From a virus, in the IMG/VR virus record IMGVR_UViG_3300046000_011930, positions 1-21,191 of that record: a stretch of DNA of 21,191 nucleotides; one strand, written 5' to 3'. Below, one piece after another: positions 2,847-14,867 of the stretch. A program made the translations under genes and the position numbers. The stretch's first letter is position 1. Each line of letters starts with the position of its first letter. The notes below the pieces were generated by a model, which saw only the letters and a program-made list of their open reading frames with translations, was not told where the DNA came from and did not search any database.

Positions 2847-2870
2847 AAACAAACTCCATTAAAAAATATT

Positions 2871-2899
2871 ATTATACTATATACTAACAAATTAGTCAA
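2871..2899 (-). promoter_or_regulatory. Sigma70-type promoter, minus strand
   Basis: On the minus strand TTGACT (2899-2894) and TATAAT (2876-2871) are separated by exactly 17 bases, a consensus arrangement 25 bases before the 2846 start. It carries the TGCTTGAC extension shared by the other promoters in the window. Confidence 0.8.
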
Positions 2900-2924
2900 G
2901 CAAAAGAAAAAAATGCTTGACTAA
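2892..2924. repeat. Inverted repeat joining two divergent promoters
   Basis: TTAGTCAAGCA (2892-2902) and TGCTTGACTAA (2914-2924) form a perfect 11-bp dyad with an 11-base A-rich centre. Each arm contains the -35 element of one of two back-to-back promoters. The symmetry may simply come from two copies of the same promoter motif, or it may be an operator. Confidence 0.7.
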
Positions 2925-2945
2925 ATAAACTTTATAGAATACACT
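2917..2945 (+). promoter_or_regulatory. Sigma70-type promoter for the structured RNA
   Basis: TTGACT (2917-2922), a 17-base spacer and TACACT (2940-2945), with the usual ATGC before the -35 element. The predicted transcription start near 2952 coincides with the first base of the first hairpin of the noncoding region. Confidence 0.7.
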
Positions 2946-2951
2946 ATATAA

Positions 2952-3510
2952 AGTTGGCTCCGAACCCAACGTCACAGTTATACCCTACAATTTATTAGCA
3001 AAAAGTGAGATAGCAACTCACCTTACCGGAGAAACCCTTATCTCCAGTAGGTCTGAAAAGATAAAATCTATATGTGACTAGATTATTATCGTACCTGAGA
3101 CGAGGCAGACACTCTTAATAAGAGTAAAAGTATATATTCGAATACTTTTCGGCGACTGGATAAAGGACGCCGTTATCATTAGTCTAGGGTCGGTCCCTTT
3201 TTCTGTTGTTTATGCGTCCTATGTTGATTTTAGCCACAACACTTCTTCAGCCAATCAGAGCATAAATAATCGGCGGACTATCTTTAACAGGATAGTTTCT
3301 AGTTGTAATAGTTTTTGTAGCTGACACCCGCACCAGTTGCAGTTTTTCTTTAAAACCTAAGTGTATATATTCATATACATGAACGGGGGGTCAAAGAAAA
3401 TTCAATCTAAGAAAAACTGGATCTTGATTCCGAAGGAATCGATCGAGCGAAGCGAAGATTATATTAGTATCAAATTAAATGTTCGCTTCGCTCACATTGC
3501 TTCGCTTTAT
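2952..3510 (+). ncRNA. Candidate large structured noncoding RNA
   Basis: No plausible protein gene lies between 2847 and 3655. From the predicted start at 2952 there are close-packed perfect stems: 2953-57/2966-70, 3006-10/3018-22, 3029-33/3042-46, 3065-70/3079-84, 3111-16/3120-25, 3126-33/3142-49, 3150-54/3168-72, 3186-89/3195-98, 3209-15/3260-66, 3277-82/3291-96, 3340-50/3409-19 and 3445-56/3482-93. Base composition is also less AT-rich than the flanks. Promoter placement suggests the plus strand. Size and ornateness recall the phage-borne giant RNAs GOLLD and ROOL, but I cannot recognise either consensus by eye. It is not a tRNA cluster as far as I can see. The 3' end is uncertain. Confidence 0.6.
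3445..3493 (+). repeat. 12-bp perfect inverted repeat with extra direct copy
   Basis: GAGCGAAGCGAA (3445-3456) is matched exactly by TTCGCTTCGCTC (3482-3493) around a 25-base AT-rich loop. A third partial copy, GCTTCGCTT, follows at 3499-3507 and leads into TTTATT. It may form the 3' boundary or terminator of the structured RNA, although the T tract is weak. Confidence 0.6.
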
Positions 3511-3530
3511 TAATGTTGTTAAATAAATGC

Positions 3531-3559
3531 TTGACGAAAACAAAAATTCAAGTTACAAT
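3531..3559 (+). promoter_or_regulatory. Sigma70-type promoter for the 3656-4865 operon
   Basis: TTGACG (3531-3536), a 17-base spacer and TACAAT (3554-3559), with the ATGC extension. The leader that follows is about 90 bases long and has a C6 run at 3583-3588 next to a small TTCG hairpin. Confidence 0.75.
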
Positions 3560-3655
3560 AAATAAAAATGTAGAAACAAATCTCCCCCCTTCGGGAAATT
3601 AACCATATGGAATCAGTAATTGATTCTAACAGTAACTTTAAATGAAAATTAATTT

Positions 3656-4084
3656 ATGATTAAGAACGTACATGAAATTCTAGATGAATTTAATCTAGCA
3701 GTAAACAAACAACAAAGAGTAGAAATTCTTCAACAGAATAATCTTTATCATTTTAAAGAAGTATTAAAATATACATTTAATCCAAACTATCAATTCTATG
3801 TTGAAGATAACTTTCCAACAGATTATATCGAACCAGATACTCTATTAGGGATTAGATATGCTGGAATTGAATCAGAAATCCGTCGAGCCTATTTGTTCGT
3901 CAAAGGAGATCCAACTGCTGATTCATTAACAGAAGAAAAACGTAATCTTCTTTTGTTACAGTTACTAGAATCTTTTGAGCCTAAAGAGGCTAAGATTTTC
4001 TTTAACATGTTACACAAAGACTTAAAGGTTAAAGGCTTAACAGCAGATTTAGTTCGTGAAGTATATCCAGAACTTTTAAATTAA
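3656..4084 (+). CDS. Small T4-like phage protein (DUF6433-like)
   Basis: A 142-residue, mostly helical acidic protein. Its order matches a small family common in T4-like cyanophages that I recall as DUF6433: an N-terminal VHEILDEFNLA helix, KQQRVEILQQNN, LKYTFNPNYQF (38-48), an extended FPTDYIEPDTL loop, an ESEIRRAYLFVKGDP core, a LLLQLLESFEPKEAKIF helix, and the closing KGLTADLVREVYPELL. The function is unknown; such genes sit among replication and nucleotide genes. It is the first gene of a plus-strand operon behind the promoter at 3531. The family name is from memory and should be taken as tentative; that it is a real gene is secure. Confidence 0.8.
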   Translation: MIKNVHEILDEFNLAVNKQQRVEILQQNNLYHFKEVLKYTFNPNYQFYVEDNFPTDYIEPDTLLGIRYAGIESEIRRAYLFVKGDPTADSLTEEKRNLLLLQLLESFEPKEAKIFFNMLHKDLKVKGLTADLVREVYPELLN

Positions 4085-4874: not shown

Positions 4875-4901
4875 GGGGGAGTTTTGCTCCCCCAAATTTT
4901 T
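4875..4901 (+). terminator. Intrinsic terminator after the 3656-4865 operon
   Basis: GGGGGAG (4875-4881) pairs perfectly with CTCCCCC (4887-4893) around a 5-base loop and is followed by AAATTTTT. It also abuts the stop of the convergent minus-strand gene. Confidence 0.85.
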
Positions 4902-6618
4902 AAGGTCTTCTAGTAAGCTCTTGTTTAGCAGTCATGCTAACATCTTTATGTTTATCGTTTGCTAATATATTAAGATGTTCTTTGGTTGCATTTGGATTTT
5001 TTGCGGCAGCTTGTCTAACATATGGAGACTTGTCTTTAATTAATTTATCTAAATGTTCTTTGTGTGGAGTGTTATCTGCTGCAGCAATTTTAACCATTGC
5101 CTCTTTATCGTTAATTAATTTATCAAAATGATCTTTATCTGTAGCTTTATTTTTTGCAACAGCTAGCCTAACATTACTACTTTTGTCTCCAGCTAAATGG
5201 TCTAAATGATCTTTCTGTGTAGTATTTCTTGCAACATTTAATCTTACAAAATCATCTGGATCATTAATAAATTTACCTAATTTTTCGTTATCGTTTTTAT
5301 TGGTATGAACTATATTGGCTCTAATATTAGGGCTTTCATCAGAATTTAATTTATCTATATGTTCTTTATGCGGCGAATTTACTAAAACTGCTTTTCTAAC
5401 GTGTTCGGATTTATCGTTAACAAGTTTATCAAAATGTTCTTTAGTTGTATTCGGATTATTTGCTACAGCTGCTCTAACTTTGTGGTCTTTATCATTAACA
5501 AGTTTATCTAGATATTTTTTATGCGATGTATTTTCTGCTACAGCTGTTCTAACGTCTTCATTTTCGTCATTACTAAGTTTATCAAGATGCTCTTTAGTTG
5601 CATTTGGATTAGTTGCAACGCTTGCTCTAATTTTTGGATCTTTATGCGTAATTGCATATTTATCTATATGTTCTTTATGTGGGGAATTTTTGAAAACTGT
5701 GTTTCTAACATGCTCGCTTTCGTCTTCGATAAGTTTATCAAGATGCTCTTTAGTTGCAGATTTATTGGCTGCAACACCTGCTCTAATATCTTCATCTTTA
5801 TCATTAATTAATTTATCTAAATGTTCTTTACTATTTGTAGGGTCTGAAGCTTTTTGTACTTTATAGTGTCTAGAATTTTTGATAGCAGGAATTTTTTCTA
5901 ATTCAGGGTTTCTGTGTATTAAATTATGGAAATCTTCGCCTTTAATTGTTTTATTATTTTCATCTTGAAATTGTCCATTTACTCCAACACCACCAATTCT
6001 TCTATGGGGAAATTGTTCTTTATGCATATGTAAAATATGAAAATTACCTCTAGATTTTTCGTTATAATGTTGAAACATATTTTTACTTCGATCTGCGATG
6101 GAAGTACACCAGCCTAATTTTTCTCCATTATCTTTTTTGCCTAATTCCTGAGCTGCTTCTGTTGTATGAACGTGATATGCAGTAAGATTAGGGCTATTGT
6201 GCACAACAGTAGAACCATTTACAACTTTAGAATTATTAATAGCTTTTACTTCCTCATCTTTTTCTTTATGTGGATGCATAGCCGTTTTTAATTCTGAAAC
6301 TGATTTATATTGTTCTATTCTTTTCTTAGGTAATTTTGATTTGTATTTCTCAAAATTCTTTACTGTATCGTGCATATCATGAGCATCTTCTTGCTTTATC
6401 TCGCCTTTTTTATATTGGTCCATCATCCAACGAGTATGTTGGACATTACCGCCTGGAGTATGTTTATGAAAATGGTCAATAATATCAGCTGCAGATTTAT
6501 GTTGTGCATCTGGATCGTGTTTAGTTGAGATATTTGTTTCTTGTGCTTTATAATCATCGATTTTAGATTCGTTTATTAAAAAACGTTCGATCATTAAAAA
6601 ATGTTTAAATCTTAACAT
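4900..6618 (-). CDS. Probable capsid-internal protein with WCTS domain and 12 HEAT-like repeats
   Basis: 572 residues in three parts. Residues 1-18 are a leader (MLRFKHFLMIERFLINES) ending in an I-N-E site like those cut by T4 prohead protease. Residues 19-245 form a domain shared with the 10095-11282 protein, including EAAQELGKK, LGWCTS (168-173), GNFHILHMHKEQFP (191-204) and GQFQDENNKTI. Residues 262-572 are 12 tandem repeats of about 25 residues, with TKEHLDKL alternating with HKEHIDKL, then a D-rich turn, then VRxAVAxN: a variant HEAT/leucine-rich-variant solenoid. WC-T domains of this sort occur in phage virion proteins of unknown activity. A late promoter (6671-6678) reads into it. Packaging in the head is inferred from the leader. 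Confidence 0.75.
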   Translation of the reverse strand: MLRFKHFLMIERFLINESKIDDYKAQETNISTKHDPDAQHKSAADIIDHFHKHTPGGNVQHTRWMMDQYKKGEIKQEDAHDMHDTVKNFEKYKSKLPKKRIEQYKSVSELKTAMHPHKEKDEEVKAINNSKVVNGSTVVHNSPNLTAYHVHTTEAAQELGKKDNGEKLGWCTSIADRSKNMFQHYNEKSRGNFHILHMHKEQFPHRRIGGVGVNGQFQDENNKTIKGEDFHNLIHRNPELEKIPAIKNSRHYKVQKASDPTNSKEHLDKLINDKDEDIRAGVAANKSATKEHLDKLIEDESEHVRNTVFKNSPHKEHIDKYAITHKDPKIRASVATNPNATKEHLDKLSNDENEDVRTAVAENTSHKKYLDKLVNDKDHKVRAAVANNPNTTKEHFDKLVNDKSEHVRKAVLVNSPHKEHIDKLNSDESPNIRANIVHTNKNDNEKLGKFINDPDDFVRLNVARNTTQKDHLDHLAGDKSSNVRLAVAKNKATDKDHFDKLINDKEAMVKIAAADNTPHKEHLDKLIKDKSPYVRQAAAKNPNATKEHLNILANDKHKDVSMTAKQELTRRP

Positions 6619-10067: not shown

Positions 10068-10097
10068 AAATGGGAGCGAAAGCTCCCATTTCCTTTA
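10068..10097. terminator. Bidirectional terminator between convergent genes
   Basis: AAATGGGAGC (10068-10077) and GCTCCCATTT (10082-10091) form a perfect 10-bp stem with a GAAA loop. T-rich sequence follows on both strands. It serves the topoisomerase operon and the 10095-11282 gene. Confidence 0.85.
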
Positions 10098-11282
10098 TTG
10101 CATTTTGGCTAATCTTTCTTTAGCAATCGAACTTACAGTTTGCGCGTCATCATTTGCTAAATGTTGTAAATGTTGTTTGGTAGCTAAAGGGTGAGCAGCA
10201 ACAACTTTTCTTACTAATGAGTGCGGGTCTTTTATAGCTTTATCTAAATGTTTTGTGGTTACAGTTTTAGGTCGAGTTAATGCAAGTTCCCGTGTAGTTA
10301 CGCTTCTATTGTCAGTATTATTTAATACTTTATCAATATGATCAGAATTTATTTTTGGATGCGTTATTGCATTATTTTTTATATTTCCTATTTTATCATC
10401 TAATGCTGTATGTAAATGGTCTTCATCAACATTAGGATGTTTTATTGCTTTATTTCTTACTTCCCAATTTTCGGAATGTAATCCATCATGAATATCTTTT
10501 TTAGATGCTGTTGGTGAGTCTAATTTTTTATTTGAGATATGATCATCGTATGCTCTTTTAACTGGGGCAATTTTCTTTACGTCTGGATTTCTATGAACAA
10601 AGTCTTCTAATCTATCGCCTTCAATTGTTTTATTATTTTCATCTTGAAATTGTCCTTCTACTCCAACGCCACCAATTCTTCTATATGGAAATTGTTCTTT
10701 ATGCATATGTAGGATATGGAAATTACCTTCAGACTCGTCATTATAATGATTAAACATATTTTGATTTGCATCTGGATGAGAAGTACACCAACCCAATTTC
10801 TCGCCTTTTGGTGATTTACCTAATTCCTGAGCTGCTTCTGTTTTATGCACGTGATAAGCCGTAGCATTTGGACTATTATGAATAACAGTTGAACCTTTAT
10901 TAATTTTATCTTGATTTACAGCTTTTACTTGTTCATCTTGTTCTTTATGCGGATGAATAGCTGTTTTTAATTCCGAAACAGATTTATATTGTTCAACTTT
11001 TTTCTTCGGAAGATTATGTTTGTATTTTTCAAAATTAGTCAACGTATCTTTCATATCAGGAGCATCTTCTTGTTTCATTTCGCCTTTTTTATATCGGTCA
11101 ACCATCCATCGAGTATGTTGGACGTTGCCATTAGGAGTATGTTTATGGAAGTGATCGATAATATCCGCAGCAGATTTATGTTTTCCTTCTAAATCATGTT
11201 GAGTAGAAATATCTTTTTCTTGAGCTTTATAGTCGTCTATCTTAGCTTCAAGTAAAGAAATGAAATGTTTAAATCTTATCAT
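10095..11282 (-). CDS. Paralogue of the 4900-6618 protein, short HEAT-like solenoid
   Basis: 395 residues. The leader MIRFKHFISLLEA ends in an L-L-E site. Residues about 14-235 are clearly homologous to the 572-residue protein, sharing KIDDYKAQE, SAADIIDHFHKHTP, LGWCTS, GNFHILHMHKEQFP and GQFQDENNKTIEG. The C-terminal part has only about five divergent repeats (for example TTKHLDKAIKDPHSLVRKVVA and TKQHLQHLANDDAQTV) instead of twelve. The two genes lie on either side of the topoisomerase operon, both minus strand and both behind a late promoter, so they look like a dispersed duplication followed by repeat gain or loss. Function is unknown; a head-packaged protein is inferred from the leader. 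Confidence 0.75.
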   Translation of the reverse strand: MIRFKHFISLLEAKIDDYKAQEKDISTQHDLEGKHKSAADIIDHFHKHTPNGNVQHTRWMVDRYKKGEMKQEDAPDMKDTLTNFEKYKHNLPKKKVEQYKSVSELKTAIHPHKEQDEQVKAVNQDKINKGSTVIHNSPNATAYHVHKTEAAQELGKSPKGEKLGWCTSHPDANQNMFNHYNDESEGNFHILHMHKEQFPYRRIGGVGVEGQFQDENNKTIEGDRLEDFVHRNPDVKKIAPVKRAYDDHISNKKLDSPTASKKDIHDGLHSENWEVRNKAIKHPNVDEDHLHTALDDKIGNIKNNAITHPKINSDHIDKVLNNTDNRSVTTRELALTRPKTVTTKHLDKAIKDPHSLVRKVVAAHPLATKQHLQHLANDDAQTVSSIAKERLAKMQ

Positions 11283-11304
11283 ATGGAGATCCTAGAAATA
11301 ATGC

Positions 11305-11333
11305 TTGACTTTTTAATATATGTATGGTATAAT
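11305..11333 (+). promoter_or_regulatory. Sigma70-type promoter, now separated from the RNase H gene
   Basis: TTGACT (11305-11310), a 17-base spacer and TATAAT (11328-11333), with the ATGC extension. The next plus-strand gene is the RNase H gene at 12234; an endonuclease gene on the opposite strand lies between. Any transcript from here would be antisense to that endonuclease. Confidence 0.75.
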
Positions 11334-11345: not shown

Positions 11346-12089
11346 TTAGAATAAATGCTTTAAGTCTGGGAAAACTCTACTTGCTACACATATATCATAT
11401 TCTTTTTTATTTTTAATATTGCACAAAAATAAATCTTTCTTTTTATGTTTTTTATTTGTTGTTCCAAGGTTAAACCCATCTGGTATTTGATCATCTTTGC
11501 CTATTTGAATATTAATTATATTATTTGTGATCCAAGTATATTGATAATTTTTTAAATTTAATTTACCATAAATCCATCCAGTAGGTATTTGTTCATTTTT
11601 GTGTATTTTATTATTAATTATTCCGTTATTTATCCAGACTTTATTTTTATTATGACTTTTATCTCCAGATATTTTTAATGAGAATTCTAATTTTCTTTTA
11701 TCTGACCACCTATTATTCCAATTAGGATTATTTTCTCCAATACAATTTTGTAATTTATATTCATCAGTAAATACTTTACCTGAACCTCCTTCGCCGCCGT
11801 CAGTTAGATTTAAAAGAATTCCAGTTCCTAGATCTTTTCTGCCATGCCAACGAATTAATCTTCGTTCAATAGCAAAAGCGCCAGTTTCGGTGAGATTTGA
11901 TTCTATAACAATAATTAACGATTTATCTTTTGGTAATTTTATTCTTCCATGTTTTGCATATGCCCGTTTTCCTTGACCTTTTCCAATATAATATGGAGTT
12001 CCTGCTTTTGCAGTTATTGAATCTTTTGATCTGAGATAGGCGTAAACGTAAAAAGATTTTTGTTTTGTATAAGTATTTGTGCTGGGCAT
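11346..12089 (-). CDS. Free-standing GIY-YIG homing endonuclease 2
   Basis: 247 residues. The GIY-YIG core reads YVYAYL at 14-19 and PYYIGKG at 32-38, with [10 protein letters not shown] after it and the probable catalytic Glu in [13 protein letters not shown] (Glu75); [10 protein letters not shown] follows. The C-terminal part has two copies of a DNA-binding repeat found in phage endonucleases: [20 protein letters not shown] and [25 protein letters not shown] lies seven bases before the ATG. The gene is on the strand opposite the RNase H gene, inserted into its promoter/leader region, and carries its own late promoter and leader hairpin. Confidence 0.85.
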
Positions 12090-12161: not shown

Positions 12162-12190
12162 TTGACTTTATACTACTTTTATAGTATAAT
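12162..12190 (+). promoter_or_regulatory. Sigma70-type promoter for the RNase H gene
   Basis: TTGACT (12162-12167), a 17-base spacer and TATAAT (12185-12190), 44 bases before the ATG. Unlike the other copies, the base context before the -35 element is TTCC rather than ATGC, consistent with the junction of an inserted cassette. Confidence 0.8.
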
Positions 12191-13193: not shown

Positions 13194-14195
13194 ATGTCAG
13201 CTACAGTTGAAACAGTAAAAGCAGAAGTTGCAGAAGCACCGCTTTTAAACAAAAGAAATATGTTGTTAGGCGCAGCTTTGTATATTGTATTTTATGGTTG
13301 GGTTCGTTGGTATGAGGGTGTATATGGATGGTCAGCTGGTTTAGATTCATTTGCTCCAGAGTTTGAAACATATTGGATGAATTTCCTTTATATTGAGATG
13401 GTACTTGAGGTATTAACTGCATCAGTGTTGTGGGGTTATATCTGGAAGACTCGCGATCGTAAAGTAATGTCAATTACCCCTAGAGAAGAATTGAGACGTC
13501 ATTTTACTCATTGGGTATGGTTAGTAATGTATGGTATTGCAATTTATTATGGTGCTTCATATTTTACTGAACAAGATGGTACATGGCATCAAACAATCGT
13601 TCGTGACACTGATTTTACTCCAAGTCACGTTATTGAGTTTTATCTAAGTTACCCAATTTATATTATTACTGGTGTAGCTTCATTCTTATACGCTAAAACT
13701 CGTTTACCAACCTATCAAAAAGGATTACCATTACAATATTTGGTATCTGTAATTGGTCCTTTTATGATTCTTCCAAACGTAGGTTTGAATGAATGGGGTC
13801 ATACTTTCAAAACAGGAAGCTCATTATAGCAATATAATGATGAGAACTCTGTGAAAACGGTGAACATCCAGAACGGACAATACCGTGCCAAGCCTAGAAA
13901 TAGGAAGGTGTAACGACTATTCCGAAAGGAAGTACACTCAAGTGAGTGGAAGCGCAGGGCAACCCACGTGGTTGATGAGATAGTCTGCTCTAACTGGGAA
14001 CAGTTAGCAGTTCATAAGAGAACGATATAAGTGTAACGAACTTATATGAACATAGGCTGGTTTATGGAGGAGTTATTTGTTGCTCCTTTGCATTATGGGT
14101 TTGTATTTTTTGGATGGGCTGCGCTTGGTGTATTAGGTGTAGTAAATATCGAAGTACAAGCTATTTCTAAATTATTGAAAAACGATTTAGTTTAA
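13194..14195 (+). CDS. pmoC: Particulate methane monooxygenase subunit C, split by a group I intron (join 13194-13807, 14057-14195)
   Basis: Joined exons give 250 residues, the normal PmoC length. Unspliced, the frame stops at 13829 after residue 211. The C-terminal 45 residues (WFMEELFVAPLHYGF onward) are in the downstream exon. The protein is an integral membrane subunit of copper methane monooxygenase with about six helices. The metal ligands known from Methylococcus (Asp156, His160, His173) align with Asp128, His132 and His145 in DGTWH and TPSH. The CuD ligands (Asn227, His231, His245) align with Asn199, His203 and His217. RWYEGVYGWSAGLDSFAPEF and RDTDFTPSH are gammaproteobacterial PmoC hallmarks. 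No pmoA or pmoB is near, so it would act by joining host subunits. AGGAG precedes the ATG. Viral pmoC genes are known from freshwater phages. Confidence 0.93.
13808..14056 (+). other. Group I self-splicing intron in pmoC (249 nt, no internal endonuclease)
   Basis: The boundaries restore the conserved PmoC frame exactly. The 5' exon ends ...ACTTT (U at 13807) and the intron ends in G at 14056. P1 pairs CUUU (13804-13807) with GAAG (13816-13819) and puts a G-U wobble at the splice site. P2 is 13821-28/13833-40, P5 13873-76/13883-86, and P6/P6a 13887-89/13907-09 and 13893-96/13901-04 with a GAAA loop. P7 is GACTA (13915-19) with TAGTC (13981-85), inside the typical AACGACTAttCCGAAAGG and gatgagaTAGTC contexts. 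P8 is 13935-39/13944-48, P9 13990-96/14001-07 with a GGAA loop, and a further hairpin 14026-32/14040-46. I could not settle P3 and P4 by eye. Subgroup IA is a guess from resemblance to T4 introns. Confidence 0.9.
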
Positions 14196-14200
14196 TCGAT

Positions 14201-14230
14201 AAAGAAAAGGGGCTTAAGCCCCTTTTCTTT
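14201..14230. terminator. Palindromic bidirectional terminator between pmoC and homing endonuclease 3
   Basis: A perfect 30-base palindrome centred on CTTAAG, with arms AAAGAAAAGGGGCTT and its complement, followed by T runs in both directions. The last five codons and stop of the minus-strand endonuclease lie inside it. Confidence 0.85.
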
Positions 14231-14867
14231 TTTTACAATTATTAAAATGGTATCTTGTCATATTTCCGCGACCTTGTTTATTACAATGCGGGCATGTTAG
14301 TATATCATTTTTATTATATTTTGGGTTTTGTTTACAGTTAGTAAAATGAAACCTTGTCATTACTGCTTTATTTCCAGACAATAAACAATGCGGGCATATT
14401 ACTGGAGTCATTGATTGTTTAGCTAACGATACTTTTTTATTATGTTCAGCAGTTTTAGGTTTTTTCATCCTTAATTTCGTTAGTTCTGACTTAGGTATTC
14501 CTTTTGCTACGTTTGATAATTTTAATTTATGTTCTACAGATAATGATATACCTGTATTATCGAATCTTTCTATTGCAAACGAACAATTAATATATAAAGG
14601 CGATTTAACTACATTTAATTGTTTTTGAATTTTTTCTTCTTTGCAATATGCTTCTTTTCGTGTATAATGCGTTGAAATTATTTTAGTTTTAAATAATGCT
14701 GGATTTATTTTTCGTTCTGATTTCCATATATCTTTATATTTTATAGAACATACAGATCCATTATAACCTTTTGCTATGTTAGTTAACGAAGATGATCCAA
14801 TATAGAAAGGCGGTAATTTATTCCCGTAATAAATTGTAAGATATACACAATACTTATAAATACTCAT
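14214..14867 (-). CDS. Free-standing GIY-YIG homing endonuclease 3 with C-terminal zinc fingers
   Basis: 217 residues. The GIY-YIG core is VYLTIYYG (8-15) and FYIGSSS (21-27), followed by a basic segment and KEAYCKEEKIQKQL (71-84), which probably carries the catalytic Glu. SVEHKLKLSNVAKG (110-123) and a second EHNKKVSLAK (141-150) are NUMOD3 motifs. The C-terminus has two C-x2-C-x(11-12)-H-x3-C zinc fingers: Cys158, Cys161, His174, Cys178 and Cys192, Cys195, His207, Cys211. AAGGAGT precedes the ATG. It lies on the opposite strand just 18 bases after the second exon of pmoC and could be the enzyme that spreads the neighbouring intron, but that link is only positional. Confidence 0.85.
   Translation of the reverse strand: MSIYKYCVYLTIYYGNKLPPFYIGSSSLTNIAKGYNGSVCSIKYKDIWKSERKINPALFKTKIISTHYTRKEAYCKEEKIQKQLNVVKSPLYINCSFAIERFDNTGISLSVEHKLKLSNVAKGIPKSELTKLRMKKPKTAEHNKKVSLAKQSMTPVICPHCLLSGNKAVMTRFHFTNCKQNPKYNKNDILTCPHCNKQGRGNMTRYHFNNCKKRKGA

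Follow-up and report, generated by a model that had tools for sequence, protein, structure and literature searches.

Between two divergent genes (2511-2852 on the − strand and 3656-4084 on the + strand), the virus sequence studied here contains 803 bases without a convincing ORF. Does this stretch encode a large structured RNA and, if so, does that RNA belong to a known family? A sequence-only reading had proposed an ornate RNA with its own promoter, and had left three options: GOLLD or ROOL, a diverged member of these, or a new class. The window, i.e. the whole stretch analysed, is an entire IMG/VR virus record of 21,191 bases. Its genes have a T4-like look (PhoH, a topoisomerase II large subunit, an exonuclease-family gene), and it carries pmoC (Pfam AmoC, E 1e-102), as do previously described phages, some of which have Methylobacter hosts (PMC7674155).

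Some other features of the window were recorded in passing. Three ORFs (14214-14867 on the − strand, 658-1407 and 11346-12089) resemble GIY-YIG homing endonucleases by eye; none of the three has a Pfam match. Two related large ORFs, 4900-6618 and 10095-11282 (both − strand), have a common N-terminal region, and the former contains about 10 repeats of a 'KEHLDKL..DK...VR..VA.N' HEAT/LRV-type unit. A strong GCTTGAC-N18-TATAAT promoter (11303-11333, + strand) faces the antisense strand of ORF 11346-12089, which suggests that this ORF was inserted between the promoter and the gene at 12162.

A non-coding structured RNA gene with its own promoter

The layout of the locus is as follows.

2511-2852, − strand: flanking divergent gene, 113 aa, no assigned function; neighbour kept in the window, sister, L209 and L211 lineages (see below)
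2871-2901, − strand: promoter of the divergent 113-aa gene
2915-2945, + strand: promoter of the RNA, GCTTGACT-N17-TACACT; one of seven GCTTGAC-N18-TANANT sites
2952-3495, + strand: structured RNA gene, 3′ end approximate
3529-3559, + strand: separate promoter of the downstream gene, GCTTGACG-N17-TACAAT; equal layout in L053
3656-4084, + strand: flanking gene with its own promoter, 142 aa, DUF6433 (Pfam PF20025, E 4e-13; phrog_461)

The claim that about 560 nt are free of protein genes was borne out, as no ORF of at least 60 aa is present in 2853-3655. The sole 50-aa ORF is a GTG frame at 3361-3513 that crosses the 3′ hairpins; what separates the homologues there are compensatory changes and indels (1, 2, 4 and 6 nt long), without a codon pattern. 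A hidden protein frame, which the sequence-only reading had itself named as fatal to its proposal, was thus not found. The TTGACT-N17-TACACT promoter that it had noticed proved real (2917-2945). The GCTTGAC-N18-TANANT set to which it belongs has 7 matches in the window, for 0.01 expected by chance, and its TTGACT box is invariant in all 9 homologues that cover the promoter. The predicted RNA gene would be transcribed from a start near 2952, 7 nt past the promoter end. The last conserved hairpin lies at 3445-3493, and the 3′ hairpins (3420-3493) precede the promoter of the next gene. No U-tract terminator was found after the RNA, so that read-through into 3656-4084 is possible.

The fold predicted for 2952-3515 has an energy of −155 kcal/mol (z −5.35), and none of 100 shuffled sequences folded as well. 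IMG/VR was scanned with both flanking proteins, and the contigs retrieved keep the RNA at 86-100% identity. Eight full-length copies from IMG/VR were aligned for covariation. RNAalifold, run separately on this alignment, found 15 pairs changed on both sides, and a direct helix scan recovered most of its helices as well as a pseudoknot. The written structure comprises 19 helices and 137 pairs, with 99.3% of cells pairing and 20 compensated pairs, a count reached by none of 500 shuffles, while structures slid by 1-3 columns give 0-2; its helices were chosen partly by covariation in the same alignment, in which the separate RNAalifold run still counts its 15. The rows represent about three to four distinct lineages (window/L017/L003/L007/L009; L008/L004; L011/L012; L010, partial), so the sequence counts overstate the number of independent events. 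One-sided changes are mostly to G-U rather than A-C when read on the + strand, which agrees with the strand of the promoter. The comparison among related phages that had been suggested therefore showed conserved pairing. The local stems announced are present, many of them with covariation. Long-range pairing exists too, as announced; the best-supported instance is not the stem proposed but a pseudoknot, 2971-2976 with 3073-3078.

The elements of the RNA, all on the + strand, are listed below.

2949-2970: 5′ element TAAAGTTGGCTCCGA together with hairpin P1 (2953-2957 with 2966-2970), whose loop contains CCGA; the 5′ element recurs in related lineages
2971-3078: pseudoknot helix P2, 2971-2976 with 3073-3078 in the P6 loop; 2 compensated pairs
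3005-3021: hairpin P3 (3005-3009 with 3017-3021); GUGAG/CUCAC to GUGGA/UCCAC, 2 compensated pairs
3023-3050: hairpin P4; 4 compensated pairs
3051-3110: helix P5 (3051-3055 with 3106-3110), enclosing P6 and a small hairpin, 3094-3105; 2 compensated pairs in P5
3060-3069 with 3080-3090: helix P6; 3 compensated pairs
3111-3125: hairpin P7; 3 compensated pairs
3126-3149: hairpin P8; 1 compensated pair
3150-3172: hairpin P9; 1 compensated pair
3201-3419: conserved core domain; identity to L011 above that of the four-fold sites of the next gene
3206-3215 with 3260-3269, 3276-3283 with 3290-3297, 3317-3323 with 3334-3340: core helices P11, P12 and P13
3309-3316 with 3412-3419, 3344-3351 with 3393-3400, 3361-3380: core helices P14, P15 and P16
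3321-3391: core motifs CTGACACC (3321-3328), CTTTAAAA (3348-3355) and GGGGGGT (3385-3391); in the 2.95 Mb searched, the ordered set is confined to the window family and L215
3420-3444: 3′ hairpin P17; 1 compensated pair
3445-3493: 3′ hairpin P18 (3445-3456 with 3482-3493, GAGCGAAGCGAA/UUCGCUUCGCUC); 1 compensated pair

P2 crosses P5, and is therefore a pseudoknot; its variants are GUCACA/UGUGAC, GUCGCA/UGCGAC and GUCACG/CGUGAC. In the 5′ domain (P3-P9, 3005-3172) the sequence varies while pairing is kept. Between the window and L011, 3201-3385 is 92.4% identical (14 of 185 sites differ), compared to 72% at the four-fold sites of the next gene (10 of 36 differ; Fisher p 0.0015). Judged by this comparison, the core is conserved beyond neutral expectation; no slowing relative to the four-fold sites is seen in the 5′ domain by itself (p 0.26). 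Only L011 was used for this claim, because the 92-99% core identity seen in most window-type contigs is due in part to recent ancestry or recombination. L008, for instance, is a mosaic that differs from the window by 12% in the 5′ domain and by 0.5% in the core. A GIY-YIG-like gene, recognised by eye (L008 2693-3280), is inserted just upstream of this mosaic RNA. The core pairs are nearly invariant, so the structure proposed for the core comes from the predicted fold.

Comparison with known RNA families

With E allowed up to 10, the GOLLD model (RF02032, gathering score 150 bits) matched nothing in the window, and in 9 related phage records nothing beyond a 4-bit chance match. Under the same limit the ROOL model (RF03087, gathering score 99.1 bits) found nothing in 10 records, and control genomes were negative as well. 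The accession first put forward for GOLLD, RF01998, is in fact group-II-D1D4-1, and this model too has no match in the window. At the gathering threshold, Rfam 15 places no family at the RNA, and a permissive cmscan of 2850-3660 produced chance matches only, far below threshold. Scans of the relatives were likewise negative, bar sub-threshold matches to a simple long hairpin in L215. With no credible match in Rfam 15, membership of GOLLD or ROOL, even as a diverged member, is unsupported and the RNA makes a new family, the option favoured among the three offered. The more general proposal, that a phage of lake type encodes a large non-coding RNA which is structured and has its own promoter, is supported by fold, covariation and promoter. 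We found conserved covarying structure and no coding potential, which places the RNA among the large structured phage ncRNAs, a class that is functional and not one of homology.

The negative Rfam result is not a matter of insensitive filters, because the same permissive setting detected a group I intron in pmoC that the fast setting had missed. The window pmoC (13194-14200) is split, with AmoC positions 7-202 at 13221-13808 and 203-244 at 14058-14183, while the gene is uninterrupted in six related phages (a seventh runs off the contig end). Between the two parts lies a match to Rfam RF00028 of 63.9 bits (gathering score 50), seen in the permissive scan of a short stretch but not in the gathering scan of 21 kb with fast filters. 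When 13194-13807 is joined to the sequence from 14057 on, the product has 250 aa, 249 of them identical to the intact 252-aa relative, which sets a 249-nt intron at 13808-14056. The ORF that follows pmoC is one of the GIY-YIG-like ORFs of the window. Four fragmented pmoC genes have been reported, and in LR_6 the fragments are separated by non-coding sequence that is transcribed and was left unexplained (PMC7674155); extrapolating from the window, introns may lie behind these genes and that stretch.

Like GOLLD, the window RNA is large, pseudoknotted, phage-encoded, recorded in DNA from lakes, and more conserved at one end; unlike GOLLD, it is shorter, has no tRNA nearby and does not match the covariance model. 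With ROOL it has in common the size class (500-660 nt), a phage origin, pseudoknots and no known partner, but it gives no match to the ROOL model even at E up to 10. GOLLD and ROOL often occur near tRNA islands; no tRNA gene was found in the 21 kb of the window or in L048, L053, L050 and L009. OLE and ARRPOF, too, are bacterial RNAs, large and ornate, whose roles are known in part or not at all, but the window RNA has no Rfam match to them; OLE is mostly found in Gram-positive extremophiles and anaerobes (PMC12054373). The manA and wcaG motifs are structured RNAs of T4-like cyanophages carrying host metabolic genes (PMC2864571), a similar setting. They differ in that manA lies in 5′ UTRs and wcaG seemingly regulates its neighbours, whereas the window RNA, without Rfam match, is separated from the next gene by a promoter.

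Relatives in other phage lineages

A sister clade (L048-L050, L052 and L053; PhoH 73-75% identical, pmoC on some contigs) has in the equivalent slot a structured RNA of ~330 nt, with promoter, RNA and hairpins arranged alike; L053 also has the downstream promoter. Two further lineages, L209/L210 and L211, were reached through a profile of the 113-aa neighbour; their slots contain some 450 nt of non-coding sequence, with a fold z of −2.85 and −2.38. None of these RNA bodies aligned to the window RNA, and window-only models missed them. Searches with the window RNA by BLAST against phage records and plasmids, and with the sister RNA against phage records, gave no real match. Core 18-mers were found in IMG/VR within the same clade only, plus one chance match (L027), and the 14 short matches of one core 18-mer in GTDB genomes were judged to be chance.

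The ends of these RNAs are nevertheless alike. The element TAAAG(N)TTG-N2-6-CCGA stands at the RNA start in the window, the sister clade (S), L211 (T) and L215 (U), accounting for 10 of the 13 matches in 44 records; a match at G004:125977 was dropped, as it seemingly lies within a coding gene. Most RNA-bearing records (16-126 kb) have GAGCGAAGCG at the 3′ end of the RNA and nowhere else, as a single copy or one hairpin pair; the record of L011 has a variant, and none of the seven RNA-less records tested contains GAGCGAAGCG. In the 80-kb genome of L209, a second place with GAGCGAAGCG, at 65.6-66.3 kb, is L215 (− strand), where a promoter and the 5′ element come with a ~450-nt non-coding stretch, next to different genes. 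Nearby (G016:65500-66300), a ~100-nt unit with the GAGCGAAGCG hairpin arm is tandemly duplicated, as if the 3′ element itself could be copied.

A covariance model built solely from the two sister RNAs (R3) matches L215 with 31.5 bits, at E 3.4e-5 when 41 kb are searched and 6.6e-5 for the whole record, which establishes the sister-to-L215 link statistically. Between the sister RNAs and L215, 8 of 20 pairs are compensated, in an alignment fitted to that structure; the fold of L215 is no more stable than that of its shuffled versions (z −0.76). The ordered motifs CTGACACC, CTTTAAAA and GGGGT are common to L215 and the window RNA, and were found nowhere else in 2.95 Mb, both strands included. The window-to-L215 link is suggested by these motifs, picked after looking, and by the common termini, rather than by a significant model match; a modest alignment score (z 4.2) and the termini point to one between L211 and L215; and for the L209 slot RNA a link is suggested by its location, by the 3′ hairpin and by a weak model match at the right place. 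We had first favoured the idea that the slot holds unrelated RNAs, since pairwise alignments and the window-type models R1 and R2 found nothing in the other lineages. The common 5′ element, the 3′ hairpin, the R3 match and the window-L215 motifs weakened it, and our reading is that the window, sister, L209, L211 and L215 RNAs may form one fast-evolving family.

Possible roles of the RNA

What could such an RNA do? Conserved, non-coding, structured, flanked by its own promoter and a distinct one for the next gene, and with relatives bearing the same termini, it is probably a stand-alone RNA gene of a new family acting in trans. A host-type RNA polymerase would transcribe it from its own phage promoter, and the ~500-nt transcript would fold into the 5′ domain, where sequence shifts and pairing is kept, and the core, with a GC-rich hairpin at the 3′ end. 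Once folded, the RNA would work as a structured body: the conserved core and the exposed CCGA loop would most likely serve to bind a partner, either a protein of host or phage or further copies of the RNA. It is not tied to one gene, as the 142-aa gene occurs elsewhere without it (in more distant phages directly 3′ of RNase H) and as the U copy lies beside different genes. No nuclease, reverse transcriptase or RNA-binding gene linked to the RNA and common to the lineages was seen.

A wider reading, which we put forward tentatively, is that of a single fast-evolving RNA family of T4-like phages, pmoC carriers included, whose termini stay fixed while the body is hypervariable, not related to GOLLD or ROOL, and serving RNA-only assembly, counter-defence or host takeover. 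RNA-only assembly and a decoy or counter-defence role both fit the anatomy. That the RNA is a decoy or inhibitor of a host defence or of a host RNA-binding factor seems rather unlikely to us: it would account for bodies almost wholly different between neighbouring lineages while termini and slot persist, and a homing-endonuclease-like gene adjoins the RNA in L008, but fast change may equally reflect relaxed sequence needs under a fixed fold. Self-assembly into a closed particle or cage, in the manner of GOLLD and ROOL without kinship to them, we hold to be unlikely. The RNA is of similar size, phage-encoded and pseudoknotted, with several exposed invariant loops and no obvious protein partner gene, and GOLLD and ROOL, mutually unrelated, both form cages (PMC12286853); against this, neither sequence nor structure matches theirs, the window has no tRNA gene, and the sister RNAs measure merely ~330 nt.

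A cis-acting leader, riboswitch-like or attenuator, for the DUF6433 gene 160 nt downstream is improbable, even though the two lie on the same strand with no clear terminator between them and manA is commonly found in 5′ UTRs (PMC2864571). The promoter of that gene follows the RNA in the window and in L053, so that the RNA is not obviously a leader; its size and pseudoknotted two-domain fold would be unusual for one, and the U copy does not precede a DUF6433 gene. It is very improbable that the RNA is a degenerate mobile ribozyme, a relative of group I or II introns stranded between genes: the window does contain a group I intron and homing-endonuclease-like genes, but the permissive scan that detects this intron finds none at the RNA, whose structure is conserved and not decaying. 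Finally, functionless stems, which abound in AT-rich DNA, or a hidden protein are refuted by the covariation, together with the fold z-score and the non-triplet indels, and we dismiss them.

To our knowledge, few families of large structured phage RNAs are known. The best studied, GOLLD with its 14-mer cage and ROOL, are RNA-only cages of unknown purpose, to which the RNA reported here adds an unrelated, independent case, found in phages with a possible effect on lake methane oxidation. Its clean anatomy, with a promoter, defined termini, a pseudoknotted domain and a conserved core, makes it amenable to synthesis, probing and imaging. As its sequence has diverged fast with the fold retained, nature also supplies a range of variants from which the parts that matter might be located.
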